In this document: one piece after another, positions 27,811 to 35,162 of the stretch
How positions within the stretch are numbered: position 1 is the stretch's first letter
How the letters are laid out: each line of letters starts with the position of its first letter
Assembly (NCBI RefSeq): GCF_003269275.1
Contig: NZ_QLTS01000001.1
Span: 62,001-126,000 of the forward strand
Length of the DNA: 64,000 bases
DNA from: Phascolarctobacterium faecium DSM 14760
GTDB lineage: Bacteria; Bacillota; Negativicutes; Acidaminococcales; Acidaminococcaceae
Reading direction: 5' to 3'
Notes under the pieces: model-generated
Databases searched by the model: none
What the model saw: only the letters and a program-made list of their open reading frames with translations
What the model was told of the DNA's origin: nothing
Made by a program: the position numbers and the translations under genes

Positions 27811-27851
27811 GCAGATAAGAGGATTTTTATTGTTCCTCTTATCTGCTTTTT
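27811..27851 (+). terminator. Terminator after ynbB
   Basis: A 13-bp stem (27811-27823 with 27834-27846, ten-base loop) is followed by five T; A residues precede it, extending the stem. Confidence 0.93.
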
Positions 27852-27929: not shown

Positions 27930-28589
27930 TTACAGCATTCTGAATACTGCTATTACCTTACCAAGAACCTGAATATTATCAGTACCTGTTATGGGAGTAT
28001 AGGCATCATTTTCTGGTTGTAGACGAATTGAACGTAATTCACGAAAATAACGCTTAACTGTTGTTTCTTCACCATCAATAAGAGCAACAACTATATCTCC
28101 GTTATTAGCAAAATTTTGCTTTCTGGCAACAATGTAATCATGATCAAGTATACCAGCTTTGATCATACTATCTCCAGAAACAGATAACATAAAAACATCT
28201 TCTTGACAGCCAAGCAAATCTAGTGGAATGGGATAGGTCTCCTCAACATTTTCAACTGCCAGAATAGGTTGCCCTGCAGTGACTTTGCCAACCAAAGGAA
28301 CAGGAACGACCGTTTTCTGCCGCCAGCTGCTGTCTTGGATCAATTCTATAGCGCGTGGTTTGGCTGGATCTCTTTGCAAAAAACCATATTCTTCTAATTT
28401 ATGCAGATGAGTGTGTACGCTGGCACTTGAAGATAAACCCACTGCCTTACCAATTTCACGTACTGCAGGAGGATATCCCTTAGCATAAACGTGCTCACGA
28501 ATGAAATCTAAAATAGCTCTTTGCCGATCGGAAAGCATTTCCTCTGTAATAACTCCATCAAAATCGCTGAAACGTGCTCTTCTTGCCAT
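27930..28589 (-). CDS. lexA: LexA SOS repressor
   Basis: Represses DNA-damage genes and cleaves itself when RecA is active. The 219-residue protein has an N-terminal winged HTH (AILDFIREHVYAKGYPPAVREIG, SSSASVHTHL), the Ala-Gly self-cleavage bond in KVTAGQP, the catalytic Ser in SVSGDSM, and the Lys in TTVKR. The ATG at 28589 is chosen because GGAGG lies eight bases upstream; an in-frame start further up lacks one. It is the first - strand gene of the right arm, with a consensus promoter and an SOS-like box upstream. It lies about 170 bases from the dif-like site and is divergent from the prophage. Confidence 0.96.
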   Translation of the reverse strand: MARRARFSDFDGVITEEMLSDRQRAILDFIREHVYAKGYPPAVREIGKAVGLSSSASVHTHLHKLEEYGFLQRDPAKPRAIELIQDSSWRQKTVVPVPLVGKVTAGQPILAVENVEETYPIPLDLLGCQEDVFMLSVSGDSMIKAGILDHDYIVARKQNFANNGDIVVALIDGEETTVKRYFRELRSIRLQPENDAYTPITGTDNIQVLGKVIAVFRML

Positions 28590-28674
28590 AAAACCAGCCT
28601 CCAATTCCAATCATCATATACTCAAAAAATTTCTAAAGATAGTAAGTTCATTTATTTCTATTCTAATTGTTTCT

Positions 28675-28782: not shown

Positions 28783-28810
28783 ACGTCCGATAATATATAT
28801 TATGTAAAAT
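28783..28810. other. Chromosome dif-like site, left end of the prophage (attL)
   Basis: A 28-base sequence with XerC arm ACGTCCGATAA, spacer TATATA and XerD arm TTATGTAAAAT. Against the B. subtilis dif as I remember it (ACTTCCTAGAA, TATATA, TTATGTAAACT) it matches 8/11, 6/6 and 10/11. It lies exactly where host genes change from + to - strand, as expected at the replication terminus. It resolves chromosome dimers through XerCD, and the prophage starts here. Confidence 0.85.
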
Positions 28811-28888
28811 GAAATTCTGATAATCATTGTGGCGACTATATACAAGCAAATTCCCATAATAATTATTTTGACGTAAAGGAGTGATATT

Positions 28889-30511
28889 TTGAAATCAGTA
28901 ATGTCCCATAATTTTAGCCGTGTTCCTCGTGCTGAAATACAACGGTCAAGCTTTAATCGTTCTCATGGTCATAAGACAACTTTTGATGCTGGCTATTTAG
29001 TTCCTTTCTTTGTCGATGAAGTGCTTCCCGGTGATACGTTTAACTGTCGAGCTACTTTGTTTGCACGTTTGGCAACTCCTATAGTTCCCTTCATGGATAA
29101 TCTGTTCATGGATACATTCTTTTTCTTTGTTCCATGTCGCTTACTCTGGGAAAACTGGGAACGCTTTAACGGTGCACAAGATAACCCCGGAGATAGTACC
29201 GATTATTTAATCCCTACATTAGCCGATAATACGACTTTTGATGTTGGTACTTTAGGCGATTACTTTGGTATTCCTACAGGTGTTTCATTATCTAATATCA
29301 ATTCTATGCCTTTCCGAGCCTATAATCTTATCTGGAACGAATGGTTCAGAGATGAAAATTTACAGGATTCTGTTGATGTTCCTAAAGATGATGGTACTGA
29401 TGATGTTATGGATTATCAACTTCTTAGACGTGGCAAACGTCATGATTATTTTACTTCCTGCTTGCCTTGGCCACAAAAAGGGCCTGGAGTTGAATTACCT
29501 GTAGGTGGTTTAGCAGATGTTAAATTTGCAGATGATTATGATGTTAATGCGCCTATTCCTTTGACTTTTAATATTAACCAACAACCTTATCCTGCTACTT
29601 ATTGGGATACGGACCAGCAAGGTCATGGGATTGTTCCTCGTCTTGATTCTTCCCAAATTGGTGGACTAGGAAATTTTGAAGGTGCATCAGTTAATATTTA
29701 TAATCCTTTGGCTTCATTGCCTGCAGGCGGTTTAGTTGCTGACCTTTCTACTGCTACTGCCGTAACAATTAATTCTTTCCGTATGGCTTTCCAAGTACAA
29801 CGATTGTATGAGCGTGATGCTCGTGGCGGTACTCGTTACACGGAAATGCTTACTGCTCACTTTGGTGTTGTCTCTCCTGACGCTCGCTTACAGCGTCCTG
29901 AATATCTCGGCGGTTCCTCCTCACCTGTCGTTATAAACCCTGTACAGCAAACGTCTTCGACAGATAACACCACTCCCCAGGGCAATCTTGCCGCTTATGG
30001 TCTTGTTGGTAGCCGTGTTCATGGTTTTACAAAATCATTCGTTGAACATGGTTATCTTATCGGTTTAGTTAATGTCCGTGCCGATCTTACCTATCAGCAA
30101 GGTTTAAACAGAATGTGGAGCAGACAAACCCGCTTTGACTTCTATTGGCCTGCCCTTGCACATCTTGGAGAACAAGCTGTACTCAATAAGGAGATATATG
30201 CAGATGGTACTGCCGCAGATGATGATGTTTTTGGTTATCAAGAACGTTTTGCAGAATATCGTTATTTCCCCTCTAAAATTACAGGGAAATTCCGTTCTAC
30301 CTTCGCACAGCCTTTGGACGCTTGGCATCTTAGCCAGAAATTTGAAACACGTCCCGTCTTAAATGCTGAATTTATCGTAGATGAACCCCCTATTGACCGA
30401 GTTGTTGCTGTTCCGTCCGAACCTCATTTCTTGTTTGATAGTTACATTCAGCTTAACTGTGTGCGTCCTATGCCTGTGTATAGTGTACCTGGCTTAATTG
30501 ACCACTTCTAA
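28889..30511 (+). CDS. Microvirus major capsid protein VP1 (F-type)
   Basis: The 540-residue jelly-roll capsid protein forms the 60-subunit T=1 shell. The N-terminus has the gokushovirus pattern: an SVMSHNFS block, then PRAEIQRSSFNRSH, then a conserved LPGDTF segment, then FMDNLFMDTFFFFVPCRLLW. The 140-330 region is more variable and includes a hydrophilic insertion, where gokushoviruses form surface protrusions. The C-terminus has FDSYIQLNCVRPMP. The start is TTG at 28889, because AAGGAG (28876-28881) is seven bases upstream; the first ATG at 28901 is too far from it. It is the first gene after the attachment site. Confidence 0.95.
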   Translation: MKSVMSHNFSRVPRAEIQRSSFNRSHGHKTTFDAGYLVPFFVDEVLPGDTFNCRATLFARLATPIVPFMDNLFMDTFFFFVPCRLLWENWERFNGAQDNPGDSTDYLIPTLADNTTFDVGTLGDYFGIPTGVSLSNINSMPFRAYNLIWNEWFRDENLQDSVDVPKDDGTDDVMDYQLLRRGKRHDYFTSCLPWPQKGPGVELPVGGLADVKFADDYDVNAPIPLTFNINQQPYPATYWDTDQQGHGIVPRLDSSQIGGLGNFEGASVNIYNPLASLPAGGLVADLSTATAVTINSFRMAFQVQRLYERDARGGTRYTEMLTAHFGVVSPDARLQRPEYLGGSSSPVVINPVQQTSSTDNTTPQGNLAAYGLVGSRVHGFTKSFVEHGYLIGLVNVRADLTYQQGLNRMWSRQTRFDFYWPALAHLGEQAVLNKEIYADGTAADDDVFGYQERFAEYRYFPSKITGKFRSTFAQPLDAWHLSQKFETRPVLNAEFIVDEPPIDRVVAVPSEPHFLFDSYIQLNCVRPMPVYSVPGLIDHF

Positions 30512-30522
30512 GGGGTGATTAT

Positions 30523-31257
30523 ATGAGCTTTGGAAGTGATTTAGGCTTACAAGCCGCAGGTTCTTTATTTTCCTTCGGTATGAATAGTTCTTCAGCAAAA
30601 GCCGCTTATAACAGACAAAAAGAGTTCTATCAAAACCAACATCAATGGGAAGTTGCAGATCTAAAAAAAGCTGGTCTAAATCCTATTCTAAGTGCTACTC
30701 ATGGTTCTGTTGGTGCTCCCTCTGTTGCCGCTCCTACTGCTGAAAATCCTGCCGCTGGCTTAGCTACATCAAGCTATCAGTATAAACGTCTTAAAGAGCT
30801 TGAACTTAAAGATATGGAAAACAGAGTGAAAGTTGGTAACTCTACTGTAGGTACTAACAATGCTACCGTTGAACGTCTTAAAACACAAAATGCTGTTGAT
30901 ACTGCTAATTCTGCCGCTAATGTCTTGTATCTTACTAAACAAGGACTAAAGTTAGCGCAGGATATTGAAAACAGTAAAATACTTACTGCTGCTCAAGCAG
31001 ATTATTATTACAAATCTGGAGATGCTGCTCTTTCTAATGCTGGAGCTTCTTGGCATAATGCTATGACAAATGCAGGTTTTAGTGCTAAGCAAATAGCTAA
31101 GATTGAAAAAGAGATGGCTAATATGGATTTAGATTATAAAAAGAAAAGCACTCGTTATTCTATTTATGATAGTGATAATGGACATGATTCTGTTGGTCAA
31201 AAAGGTGCTCGTTTAGGTGAAATGTTTTCTAATGTTTTCCCAATGTATGGATATTGA
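30523..31257 (+). CDS. Microvirus DNA pilot protein VP2 (H-type)
   Basis: The 244-residue minor protein is expected to guide the genome into the next cell. The N-terminus has a Gly/Ser/Ala-rich amphipathic segment (GLQAAGSLFSFGMNSSSAKA), then the conserved WEVADLKKAGLNPILSAT motif of gokushovirus VP2, a Pro/Ala-rich stretch and long alpha-helical regions that would assemble a tube. AAGGGGTGA precedes the ATG. It begins 12 bases after VP1, as in other members of the subfamily. Confidence 0.93.
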   Translation: MSFGSDLGLQAAGSLFSFGMNSSSAKAAYNRQKEFYQNQHQWEVADLKKAGLNPILSATHGSVGAPSVAAPTAENPAAGLATSSYQYKRLKELELKDMENRVKVGNSTVGTNNATVERLKTQNAVDTANSAANVLYLTKQGLKLAQDIENSKILTAAQADYYYKSGDAALSNAGASWHNAMTNAGFSAKQIAKIEKEMANMDLDYKKKSTRYSIYDSDNGHDSVGQKGARLGEMFSNVFPMYGY

Positions 31258-31273
31258 TAAGGAGGTGATTAAT

Positions 31274-31357
31274 ATAGACAAGTTTGTAAAGTATGCTACC
31301 TTTGTATCTGCATTGTTAGCCGCTATCGTTTCCAGTATTACCCAATTTAAATTTTAA
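31274..31357 (+). CDS. Putative 27-residue hydrophobic peptide with a non-ATG start
   Basis: Between VP2 and the VP8-like gene a perfect AAGGAGGTG (31259-31267) precedes an open frame that contains no ATG, TTG or usable GTG start at proper distance. The codon at a proper spacing (eight bases) is ATA at 31274, with ATT five bases nearer. The product would be (M)DKFVKYATFVSALLAAIVSSITQF plus KF in two parts: a short charged head, one 15-20-residue hydrophobic helix, and a basic tail. The stop overlaps the next ribosome binding site. Small membrane peptides could act in lysis, but this is inference; the strong Shine-Dalgarno is the main support. Confidence 0.5.
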   Translation: MDKFVKYATFVSALLAAIVSSITQFKF

Positions 31358-31369
31358 GGAGTGATGATT

Positions 31370-31486
31370 GTGCGAAGACATAAAATGTCCCGCAGACGTT
31401 CCAGAAAACTATTTAGTAAAACTGCTTCTCGTACTCGTTCCAAAAATCTCCGTTCCCGTCCAATGCGTGGCGGTTACAGAATTTAG
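31370..31486 (+). CDS. Arg-rich DNA-binding peptide (VP8-like)
   Basis: A 38-residue peptide with 13 or so Arg/Lys in its first 30 residues (RRHKMSRRRSRKLFSKTASRT) and the ending RPMRGGYRI. This is the recognisable small DNA-condensing protein of gokushoviruses, the counterpart of phiX174 J. The start is GTG at 31370, eight bases after AAGGAG; an in-frame ATG at 31364 is only two bases from it. It is too short for many gene finders. Confidence 0.85.
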   Translation: MRRHKMSRRRSRKLFSKTASRTRSKNLRSRPMRGGYRI

Positions 31487-31496
31487 GTGAATTAAA

Positions 31497-32390
31497 ATGC
31501 CTTGTTATCATCCTTTGTTAGCATGGCGTGATTCCTCTAAGGTTAATCCTAAGACTGGCAAGTCTTCTTTGGTGTTCACTGCTCCCGCTAATTGGCGGGA
31601 GTGTGAGCCATTGAAAATACCATGTGGTCAGTGTGTAGGTTGTCGCCTTGAACGTTCCCGAGTATGGGCTGTCCGTTGCGTTCATGAGGCTTCGCTCCAT
31701 GAACGTAATTGTTTTATTACTCTTACTTACAATGATGAAAATTTACCATCTGACCGTTCGCTTAAGATGAAACACTATCAAGATTTTATGAAGCGTCTTA
31801 GAAAGCGTTACGGAGAAGGTATTAGATTCTTTCACTGTGGAGAGTATGGTTCTTTAAATCAACGTCCCCACTATCATGCTATATTGTTTAATCATGATTT
31901 TGAGGATAAAAAGTTATGGAAGGTGAATAATGGCTTTAAATTATATGTATCAGATAGTCTCTCACGTCTTTGGCCTTTTGGCTATGCTTCTATTGGTGAT
32001 GTTTCTTTTGAATCTGCTGCATATGTGGCTAGATACGTCCTTAAAAAGGTTACAGGAGATGCTCAAGAAGCCCACTACAAAGGGCGACAACCAGAATACG
32101 TTACCATGAGTCGGCGTCCTGGTATCGCGCACGAATGGTTCTTACGCTATAAAAATGATATATTTCCTAATGATAAATGCGTTATTAGAGATGGATTAGT
32201 AGTTAGGCCCCCACGATACTATGACAAAATATTTGATGAAATTGATCCTATTGCCTTTAAAGATGTATTAACAGTCCGTAAATTAAAAGCTCTTAAAACT
32301 GACCAAACTGTTGACTATATCCGTTTAGGTGTTAAAGAAAAATGTAAAAATAAACAACTTGAGTCGTTAATTCGACCTATTGAAATGTGA
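31497..32390 (+). CDS. Microvirus replication initiator VP4 (HUH endonuclease)
   Basis: Starts rolling-circle replication by nicking the double-stranded form. The 297-residue protein has the three Rep motifs in order: FITLTYND (residues 73-80), the HUH motif RPHYHAILF with His125 and His127, and AAYVARYVLKK with Tyr176 and Tyr180 as the nucleophile pair. A Cys cluster at the N-terminus (CGQCVGCR, residues 43-50) is also typical of gokushovirus VP4. All catalytic residues are present, so the enzyme looks active. It lies ten bases after the VP8-like gene. Confidence 0.95.
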   Translation: MPCYHPLLAWRDSSKVNPKTGKSSLVFTAPANWRECEPLKIPCGQCVGCRLERSRVWAVRCVHEASLHERNCFITLTYNDENLPSDRSLKMKHYQDFMKRLRKRYGEGIRFFHCGEYGSLNQRPHYHAILFNHDFEDKKLWKVNNGFKLYVSDSLSRLWPFGYASIGDVSFESAAYVARYVLKKVTGDAQEAHYKGRQPEYVTMSRRPGIAHEWFLRYKNDIFPNDKCVIRDGLVVRPPRYYDKIFDEIDPIAFKDVLTVRKLKALKTDQTVDYIRLGVKEKCKNKQLESLIRPIEM

Positions 32391-32400
32391 GGTAATTATT

Positions 32401-32742
32401 ATGAAAAAATTGTATGCTATCTATGACCGTAAAGCTATGTTCTTTGGTTCTATTATTGCTGTTTCCGCTCAAATTGAAGCTGTTCGAGCCTTTGCTGGAG
32501 CCGTTGAAAGTATGGATTCTATGATCTATAAATATCCTAATGATTTCGCCTTATTTTCTCTTGGTGAATATGATGAACATACTGGTAGCCTTGCTTCTTA
32601 CCCTACTCCTATTTTAGTACATGAAGCTATTGAGTTTCATCCTCATGAAAAGCCGCTGGCGCAAGGTGCAGAAATCAGCGTAGCGTCTGCACCTGTAGAC
32701 AGTGGAATCGCCGTAGGCGAAAAGTCCCCCATTGGTGAATGA
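32401..32742 (+). CDS. Microvirus non-structural protein VP5
   Basis: A 113-residue protein starting MKKLYAIYDRKAMFF, the usual VP5 opening (KLYSIYD-like), then VRAFAGAV and a FALFSLGEYDEHTG block. In gokushoviruses VP5 is linked to control of double- versus single-stranded DNA synthesis (the phiX174 C role). The start at 32401 fits the family better than an in-frame ATG 21 bases upstream inside the VP4 end. Its stop lies one base before the VP3 start. Confidence 0.88.
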   Translation: MKKLYAIYDRKAMFFGSIIAVSAQIEAVRAFAGAVESMDSMIYKYPNDFALFSLGEYDEHTGSLASYPTPILVHEAIEFHPHEKPLAQGAEISVASAPVDSGIAVGEKSPIGE

Positions 32743-32743
32743 T

Positions 32744-33172
32744 ATGGAATTCAGAAAAAACTATGAAAAGGAATTAGTTCCTGGTAAAACATTCTATGCA
32801 CCTTCATTTACTCAACAACAATTTAAAAATGAATGTGATGTTAATTTGATTCTAAAACGTTATGAGCAGACAGGCGTAATAGACCATCTGACGGCTAAAA
32901 AGCCCCTTTATGGCGATTTTAGTGATATCCCAGACTATCAGGTAGCCCAACATATATTAATCGACGCTCAGGAGAAATTTGACGCTCTCCCAGCGTCCAT
33001 AAGAAAACGTTTTGACAATAATCCGTTAAACATGGTAGAATTTTGTAAAGATCCTGAAAACCATGAAGAAGGTGTTAAACTTGGATTATTTAATAAACCT
33101 ATTGATGTACTCAGTGATATTCCTGTTGGGAATAGTAGTTCCAACGATAATCCTATTCAAAGTGATTCGTAA
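32744..33172 (+). CDS. Microvirus internal scaffolding protein VP3
   Basis: A 142-residue protein with the gokushovirus scaffold pattern: QQFKNECDVNLILKRYEQTG, then YGDFSDIPDYQVA, then DALPASIRKRFDNNP and a C-terminal KLGLFNKP. It guides capsid assembly and is removed later. It overlaps nothing and is the last gene before the right attachment site; on the circular genome VP1 follows it. An in-frame GTG nine bases upstream is an alternative start; GGTG six bases before the ATG supports 32744. Confidence 0.9.
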   Translation: MEFRKNYEKELVPGKTFYAPSFTQQQFKNECDVNLILKRYEQTGVIDHLTAKKPLYGDFSDIPDYQVAQHILIDAQEKFDALPASIRKRFDNNPLNMVEFCKDPENHEEGVKLGLFNKPIDVLSDIPVGNSSSNDNPIQSDS

Positions 33173-33186
33173 AATTACTCGTTAAA

Positions 33187-33238
33187 ACCCCGAATAAAGG
33201 GGTCGGCACAGTTACCCACTTGATGTAACTGTGCCGAC
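33187..33238 (+). other. Strong double hairpin in the prophage intergenic region
   Basis: A perfect 14-bp stem (33202-33215 with 33225-33238, nine-base loop) overlaps a smaller 5-bp hairpin (33187-33191 with 33199-33203); both cannot form at once. No T run follows, so it is not a classic terminator. It lies 14 bases after the VP3 stop and 78 before the right dif repeat. It may be a transcription pause, the complementary-strand origin or a packaging element of the ssDNA genome. Confidence 0.6.
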
Positions 33239-33315
33239 TGACACCAAATTCTAAAACTACCCCCTACGAATCTTTTTGTGTGTCAGTTTCTTATAATGAA
33301 TTAGTCTATAGTTTA

Positions 33316-33343
33316 TGTCCTTTGTATATATATTATGTAAAGC
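33316..33343. other. Right prophage attachment site (attR), partial dif
   Basis: Contains spacer TATATA and XerD arm TTATGTAAAGC, matching dif, but the XerC side, TGTCCTTTGTA, matches the B. subtilis arm at only about 5 of 11. Joining the left XerC arm to this XerD arm rebuilds a dif with 23 of 28 matches to B. subtilis, the expected empty host site. Confidence 0.75.
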
Positions 33344-33611: not shown

Positions 33612-35162
33612 TTAATATTTTTCTTTTAACAAAGAACTTTTGAATAAATTATAGCTGTCGTATTCTTTTTGGATCAAATTTGATTTCATCGTTTTATCTT
33701 GTGTAAAATAACATAACAGATTAATTCGATTATCTGCATCAAAGTAAACTTTCTTTTGCCCATGTATAGATAAATCTGTTAAATCGGTTTCTTGAAAAAT
33801 GTCATAACCAGGTCGGTTGATTTTAGATAAAGTTTGTGGCAAATGTAAATCTACATCATAAGTAAATTGAAGCAGGCAGTTTTCTTTATTGATATCAATA
33901 TCATGTGTAAAATTTTTAATCTGAACAAACTTTTCTAGTTTTGCTTTTTCACGTGGATTCAAAAACGGTTTGTTCATAAATTCTTCGAACATAATTTTAG
34001 TAAAAACAGGATTTTCTAAAAACTGCTTTGGGCCTTGGTCATGAGGACGAGCTGGCTTATATTCTGCCGAAATACCTATAACACCTTCGGAATAAGCTTT
34101 TAAAATTTTGCTAAAATCAAAGTCATCAATATTATTAGATTCCACATTCATACCTATTTTGGTAGTTTCAATATTAAATAATTTAGAATCTATATACTCC
34201 TTCCCCATCTTTTCCAAGCTGCTGACAGGTAATGCAGCGAAGAAACTGACAGGCATATTTTCCACTTTTTGATTGCTTTGAATGTACAGCCAGTTATGTG
34301 GGACTTTGAACTCATTGTTAAAAATACCATCTTTAATAATAAGTTCAGAATTAGATAATTGTGGTTTAAAGAAATTCAGTTTTTTTGTAAACGCTTTAGA
34401 GAATTTCTTATATGCACGTTTATCAACTTTATTGTCTGTAAACTTTTGAATAAATTTATCAGCTTTATTTTCTGCAACCACTGTTTCACTTTGTTCTATT
34501 GCAGGAAACTCAACATATCCACTGCTTATGTTATATAATTGATTATTTTGTGACAAAATATAAATTTTAGAAATTAAATTGTACTGAGCTGTCATCTGTT
34601 TACCATCAGCACTGAATTTAACATAAGGATTATATTTTTGTATATTCTGCTGTTCTTTCCGAGTATAAGCAATTGGCAATTTTATTTCATAATTCAACAG
34701 CATATCATTGTTGATTTCTAATGCTGGTATTTTGTTAATCTTTGTTATTTTATAGTTTTTATTACCAGGTAAAGATTGTGGATTATCCTGCATAAGTTTC
34801 TGCATATATACTTGTAACTCATTTTGCGGTACAGTAAGATAAGCATAAGCAGGATCAGCTAAGATATCTTTTCCAGCTTTAATATCTTCAGCTATCTTCT
34901 TTAAATCACTTTCAAATTTATTGGTAGCAAAAGCTGTTTTCGTATATTTTTCAATAGATTGCTGACTTATAGCTGCTATACCATGCATGCCAGACTTATT
35001 GCTGCCTGCCGCAAACAGATCTTTACTGACAATAATAGTGTTATCATCTGGAATATCGACACTGAAACCAGCTTCTTCACTGCGATAGTCGAAAGCATAG
35101 CAGCTGGAAAGACTAACCAAGATACCGAATGTGATGATTCCTGAACAGATTGTTTTTCTCAT
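33612..35162 (-). CDS. Secreted/lipoprotein paralogue B, function unknown
   Basis: I do not recognise a named family. The 516-residue product has an N-terminal signal with a possible lipobox LSSC (Cys21), then YRSEEAGFSVDIP, which recurs in the neighbouring paralogue as YRNPEAGFKINIP. It is rich in Lys, Asn and Phe with a central basic region and no transmembrane segment after the signal. A second VPHNWLYIQS segment (about residue 290) matches LPENWYYVQS in the paralogue, where it likewise precedes a run containing ALP. The pair therefore has a repeated two-part layout. It follows its paralogue after 48 bases and ends at a terminator. Position: outermost gene of the right arm, next to dif. 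Confidence 0.65.
   Translation of the reverse strand: MRKTICSGIITFGILVSLSSCYAFDYRSEEAGFSVDIPDDNTIIVSKDLFAAGSNKSGMHGIAAISQQSIEKYTKTAFATNKFESDLKKIAEDIKAGKDILADPAYAYLTVPQNELQVYMQKLMQDNPQSLPGNKNYKITKINKIPALEINNDMLLNYEIKLPIAYTRKEQQNIQKYNPYVKFSADGKQMTAQYNLISKIYILSQNNQLYNISSGYVEFPAIEQSETVVAENKADKFIQKFTDNKVDKRAYKKFSKAFTKKLNFFKPQLSNSELIIKDGIFNNEFKVPHNWLYIQSNQKVENMPVSFFAALPVSSLEKMGKEYIDSKLFNIETTKIGMNVESNNIDDFDFSKILKAYSEGVIGISAEYKPARPHDQGPKQFLENPVFTKIMFEEFMNKPFLNPREKAKLEKFVQIKNFTHDIDINKENCLLQFTYDVDLHLPQTLSKINRPGYDIFQETDLTDLSIHGQKKVYFDADNRINLLCYFTQDKTMKSNLIQKEYDSYNLFKSSLLKEKY

Follow-up and report, generated by a model that had tools for sequence, protein, structure and literature searches.

The DNA analysed here, a window of 64,000 nucleotides from Phascolarctobacterium faecium DSM 14760 (contig NZ_QLTS01000001.1, positions 62,001 to 126,000), carries between positions 28783 and 33343 an intact gokushovirus provirus with a unit length of 4,533 bases. 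Its genes lie on a single (+) strand in the order VP1, VP2, J-like basic peptide, VP4, VP5 and VP3, and every frame is open. The major capsid protein VP1 (28889-30511, 540 amino acids) matches Phage_F (E = 5e-191) and phrog_514 (2e-229) and most likely starts at the TTG codon at 28889, behind an AAAGGAG sequence. The DNA pilot protein VP2 (30523-31257) is recognised by pilot-protein phrogs (phrog_8693, 2e-23), and the very basic 'VP8'-like peptide (31361-31486; phrog_10695, 1.8e-15), which likely begins at the GTG at 31370, is by its sequence probably a J-like DNA-packaging protein. VP4 (31497-32390) is a rolling-circle replication initiator of the HUH two-tyrosine type (REP_ORF2-G2P, PF23343, 8e-23; phrog_942, 4e-122) that has kept all its motifs, FITLTY, HYH and YVARY, at residues 73, 125 and 176. 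It is followed by the nonstructural DNA-binding protein VP5 (32401-32742; Phage_ORF5, PF20577, 4e-20) and the internal scaffolding protein VP3 (32744-33172; Chlamy_scaf, PF09675, 2e-38). The family matches thus bear out the original prediction, made from the sequence without database searches, of a contiguous and open VP1, VP2, VP8-like, VP4, VP5 and VP3 with the VP4 catalytic residues in place. Neither an integrase nor a repressor was detected in Pfam and phrog family searches of the provirus genes. In an alignment of VP1 with eight relatives, the provirus protein departs alone from otherwise identical columns four times, compared to 2-12 times in the other sequences, and since this falls inside the range of its relatives VP1 is not decaying.

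Two smaller open reading frames complete the inventory. A putative hydrophobic product of about 30 amino acids is encoded between VP2 and the J-like gene (31265-31357, + strand), where an open frame with a putative start follows a strong ribosome-binding site, AAGGAGG; it has no family match in the phrog search. Within VP4, an out-of-frame reading frame at 31930-32109 encodes a hydrophobic stretch and a basic tail that recall the phiX174 E lysis protein, but as a candidate hidden lysis gene it was rejected, with no consistent counterpart in 108 relatives.

The provirus is bounded by a 16-bp direct repeat, ATATATATTATGTAAA, whose two copies, found by a repeat search on the + strand at 28793-28808 and 33326-33341, are spaced 4,533 bases apart, just as predicted; with shuffled 400-base flanks the longest identical match did not exceed 13 in 300 trials. 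The last 15 bases of the repeat (TATATATTATGTAAA) have exact copies at these two places only in the 2.32 Mb genome, which is 100% complete. A dif scan shows that the left junction, attL (28783-28810, +), is a perfect 28-bp dif, ACGTCCGATAA-TATATA-TTATGTAAAAT (XerC arm, core and XerD arm), the usual site in genomes of the family, although the last two bases of its XerD arm would be phage-derived. The right junction, attR (33315-33343, +), is assigned by register comparison as a degenerate phage XerC arm, the core and the XerD arm TTATGTAAAGC; its XerC arm reads ATGTCCTTTGT in the register with 7-bp spacing and TGTCCTTTGTA in the 6-bp register. The 16-mer is accordingly made up of the final XerC-arm base, the 6-bp core and nine of the 11 XerD-arm bases. 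This amends the earlier description of the repeat as dif core plus XerD arm, of which the core stands, and likewise the position of the insert: it does lie at dif, but the full chromosomal site is 28783-28810.

An assembler could conceivably have joined free phage from the culture to dif, and the data do come from a single strain at assembly level. Yet the insert sits in one copy within a 797 kb contig, a repeat of 16 bp is too short for such joining, and the outer arms of the two junctions differ, as real recombination yields; we consider an artefact extremely improbable.

That the site at 28783-28810 is the real chromosomal dif is shown by three independent lines of evidence. The cumulative guanine-cytosine (GC) skew reaches its maximum at 27,832, beside the provirus; gene strands converge on the site from both sides, with lexA as the main exception; and the same site recurs across the family, where the dif pattern was matched in 44 of 59 genomes, once in each except for one genome, where a weaker second match was seen. 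The proposed integration at dif is borne out. The host lexA gene (27930-28610, - strand; PF01726/PF00717) serves as a flanking marker of the locus, since of the 29 relatives with a site that was read, 26 have beside dif a lexA 58-85% identical to it, and 13 also have a lyase gene there. To the right of the provirus lies a host gene with no assigned family (33612-35162, -), a diverged homologue of which is found right of dif in eight relatives. The segment 33612-36452 as a whole encodes two adjacent proteins with signal-peptide-like starts and no Pfam match, diverged homologues of which lie beside the dif of relatives.

The Phage_F gene is absent from the other 58 genomes of the family, so the dif sites of these relatives are free of such a phage. 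The original prediction had named as contrary evidence a decayed insert shared by related strains, or an empty site without dif. Instead, no family relative carries the insert, the genes are undecayed, and each site that was read is a dif, in nearly every case next to lexA. Among 380 genomes of the class, Phage_F was found elsewhere only on three probable phiX174 contaminant contigs. These are stand-alone contigs of 5,386, 5,616 and 5,513 bases in the genomes of three species (L003, L004 and L005), and their length and isolation suggest that they are probably the phiX174 control.

Taken together, the locus is best explained by a temperate gokushovirus that lysogenises by recombination into the chromosomal dif, catalysed by the host XerC and XerD (probability about 0.9). 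The host encodes both recombinases, each scoring above the curated NCBIfam cut-off; xerC adjoins what we take to be a codY-like gene and xerD a presumed miaA-like gene, both names having been read off the neighbouring sequences. The suggestion that the phage borrows these enzymes is thereby supported, as it is by the dif-derived repeats at both ends. According to this model, the double-stranded replicative form would carry, between VP3 and VP1, an attP composed of a weak XerC arm, a TATATA core identical to that of the host and a perfect XerD arm, TTATGTAAAAT. XerC and XerD acting on attP and dif would swap strands inside the shared core, leaving on the left the host XerC arm joined to the phage XerD arm, a perfect dif once more and usable by the host, and on the right the weak XerC arm of the phage joined to the host XerD arm. 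A crossover anywhere within the 16-bp repeat would imply an attP of ATGTCCTTTGT-ATATATA-TTATGTAAAAT and an empty host site of ACGTCCGATAA-TATATA-TTATGTAAAGC; in full, the predicted empty site is ACGTCCGATAATATATATTATGTAAAGC and the predicted circle junction ATGTCCTTTGTATATATATTATGTAAAAT. With one and the same core on both partners and neither junction lost, this reaction ought to be reversible.

It is very likely that the phage integrated by means of borrowed XerCD. Excision and inducibility of the provirus, and Xer dependence and virion production in this host, are likely only by analogy with E. coli, where experiments showed integration to fail when xerC, xerD or either arm was missing (PMC7062461).

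Several observations weigh against this model. The right XerC arm is poor, with two of 11 positions matching if the core is 6 bp and six of 11 if it is 7 bp. The predicted empty host site ends in TTATGTAAAGC, with an unusual final GC, while the XerD arms of relatives end otherwise, mostly in AT; either this part of the host site has changed over time or the crossover did not happen exactly as modelled. No clear attP was found in the direct sister phages. Finally, the evidence is the assembled sequence of one strain, the sole representative of its genus among the genomes compared, so that the empty site of the species is a predicted one.

The weakness of the right arm bears on the fate of the provirus after integration. 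It could have entered via dif and then become stuck, with the XerC arm of attR too weak to allow excision, and be carried passively ever since: in the usual register attR agrees with dif at no more than 17 of 28 positions, the assembly contains no separate circular phage contig, and the phage encodes neither repressor nor integrase. This deserves a hearing but strikes us as unlikely, given that the genes are all open and VP1 has no excess of odd residues; moreover, E. coli prophages have equally poor right arms, and in pure culture a tested member of that group underwent continuous excision and reintegration (PMC7062461).

Excision of a live provirus would restore the circle for rolling-circle replication by VP4, for which a candidate origin lies close to the right end. 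A stem-loop at 33202-33238 (+ strand), formed by a 14-bp perfect inverted repeat, displays ACTTGAT in its loop. Because this loop resembles the nick site of phiX174 gene A, the structure is probably the double-strand (rolling-circle) origin. Most gokushovirus sequences scanned have a similar stem-loop with a CTTGAT loop, usually behind VP3.

The same stem-loop raises the question of whether integration might use the single-stranded DNA, with its attP folded into a hairpin, and XerC alone, in the manner of CTXphi. The virion genome is single-stranded, about 80 bases separate the strong stem-loop from the attachment site, and a second dif-like sequence has been described in some Bacteroidetes proviruses (Krupovic and Forterre 2011, PMC3091885). 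Against this, no second, inverted dif-like site lies near the provirus end, the best reverse match (18 of 28 positions, the palindromic dif itself excepted) being located in VP4; stem-loops of this kind are common to gokushoviruses in general, and an identical core on both sides fits double-stranded exchange. A hairpin route is therefore improbable, and recombination of the double-stranded form with dif remains the preferred model.

The provirus belongs to the Gokushovirinae. Its VP1 falls within the gokushovirus part of a VP1 tree, nearest to faecal gokushoviruses (a quick tree, with support from the Shimodaira-Hasegawa-like approximate likelihood ratio test, SH-aLRT, rather than bootstrap), and it has the VP1-VP5 gene set of the subfamily in about 4.5 kb, and lacks spike or external scaffold genes of the phiX type. 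It is probably also a Xer-exploiting element: it encodes no integrase and occupies a chromosomal dif, flanked on either side by dif-derived repeats. A close parallel is Enterogokushovirus (EC6098 and the dif prophages of E. coli and other Enterobacteriaceae; Kirchberger and Ochman 2020), which shares with it a genome of 4.3-4.7 kb, the lack of an integrase, integration at dif, and a near-perfect dif at the left junction combined with a degenerate right junction. The layout of the site, however, is reversed. The enterobacterial attP lies between VP2 and VP4 and that of the window phage between VP3 and VP1; relative to VP1, dif runs antiparallel in the former and parallel in the latter; and a good XerC arm with a degenerate XerD arm is exchanged for a good XerD arm with a degenerate XerC arm. 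Five E. coli prophages illustrate this, having at the left junction the phage's own XerC arm, AGTGCGCATAA, and at the right a degenerate phage XerD arm next to a XerC arm, which in four cases is that of the host, GGTGCGCATAA. In the VP1 tree, the phages of E. coli, Citrobacter and Intestinirhabdus form their own clade (100% SH-aLRT) that excludes the window phage. Since the latter mirrors the enterobacterial layout and lies in another VP1 clade, its Xer site arose separately, which agrees with the reported scatter of dif motifs among gokushovirus genomes (PMC7062461).

Among enterobacterial hosts, Intestinirhabdus alba apparently harbours two different gokushoviruses in tandem at dif, with a period of about 4.3 kb and diverged copies (L058:3913-12568), and a Citrobacter plasmid carries a gokushovirus between two ISNCY-family transposase copies (L160).

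A second group of comparison is formed by the dif-integrated microviruses of Bacteroidetes (BMV, Alpavirinae; Krupovic and Forterre 2011), which also have dif-type direct repeats and no recombinase but differ in their larger genomes and subfamily. Alistipes loci, taken as stand-ins, have VP1 proteins only 32-34% identical to that of the window phage and fall outside all other rows of the tree; in one of them (L071) the dif-like repeats likewise run parallel to VP1, and the XerC arms have diverged. The nearest relatives are uncultivated gokushoviruses recovered from the faeces of pigs, dogs and rodents (MG945479, MG945491 and OM869624), which are about 68% identical in VP1 and are known as free genomes only; MG945479 and MG945491, from pig and dog, group with the window phage at 98% SH-aLRT. 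Sites resembling attP in the nearest free relatives were overall not above shuffled controls, with two that looked real (L126 and L153).

Exact searches of IMG/VR with four core-plus-XerD sequences yielded 199 loci for screening, six of which are gokushoviruses. In all six the motif is parallel to VP1; it lies between VP3 and VP1 in L167, and where VP4 and VP5 meet or close by in the others; selection by a perfect XerD arm biases these loci with respect to the arms, not to orientation or place. L167 (IMGVR_UViG_3300028832_001872) has VP3, origin stem-loop, attP and VP1 arranged as in the window, in the same orientation and at nearly the same spacing, with the site CCGTCAGTTAA-TATATA-TTATGTAAAAT; it differs in being a free genome with a VP1 that is 52% identical. 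One tentative extension, to which we attach limited credence, is that gokushoviruses of Bacillota convergently built a Xer site of opposite polarity, parallel to transcription, in which the XerD arm facing VP1 is intact, the XerC arm is worn and the core is possibly 7 bp long; integration would then be initiated by XerD rather than XerC and be coupled to FtsK at the terminus.

Other microviruses are integrated in Firmicutes replicons. Those of Erysipelatoclostridium and Mammaliicoccus sciuri (Kirchberger et al. 2022) occupy other hosts, and a gokushovirus on a Pusillibacter faecalis plasmid (L154) is 47% identical in VP1 and has no convincing dif-type repeat. The latter (L154:5791-10817) resides in a conjugative megaplasmid of Clostridia and adjoins a gene annotated as tyrosine recombinase XerC, with no clear flanking repeat. 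In a Clostridia metagenome contig (L063:8454-13600), the 17-bp repeats on either side of a gokushovirus lie within a palindrome (TTTCGCTAAAGACAACT); they are unlike dif and possibly represent another type of attachment site.

The assignment of the host to a Negativicutes-type bacterium, made originally from the sequence, is a well-supported inference: LpxC and the codY-like gene beside xerC form the pattern of a diderm Firmicute. Encounters between this class and related phages are recorded in clustered regularly interspaced short palindromic repeat (CRISPR) arrays. A spacer in array L410 of a genome of the same class (G344) matches the gokushovirus origin region, with 29 of 29 bases identical in the sister phage MG945479 and 28 of 30 in the window phage; it is aimed at the conserved origin stem-loop and would hit many gokushoviruses together. 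In a second genome of the class (G347), one spacer of array L416 is 96% identical to VP4 across 25 bases, and a further spacer weakly matches the VP4 start. Short phage matches at 32381-32421 in several family genomes were rejected as spacers, being gene-start look-alikes. Gokushoviruses had been connected with this class before, iPHoP having assigned Phascolarctobacterium as the predicted host to 19 Gokushovirinae associated with bees (PMC11860568). An integrated one was not encountered for the class in the literature searched, which covers Kirchberger et al. 2022 up to its table of hosts in 28 classes; priority is not claimed.

Gokushoviruses are among the commonest phages of the animal gut, and hosts are known for very few of them. 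The locus provides a chromosome-level host for a clade of faecal gokushoviruses, backed by CRISPR spacers from the same class. The enterogokushovirus study of 2020 found no gokushovirus prophages outside enterobacteria, and dif-integrated microviruses are known from enterobacteria and Bacteroidetes; here they extend to another bacterial class and another phage lineage, in which the borrowing of XerCD arose separately and with a different site layout. The provirus offers a second natural system in which to test how a phage with neither integrase nor repressor lives in dif.

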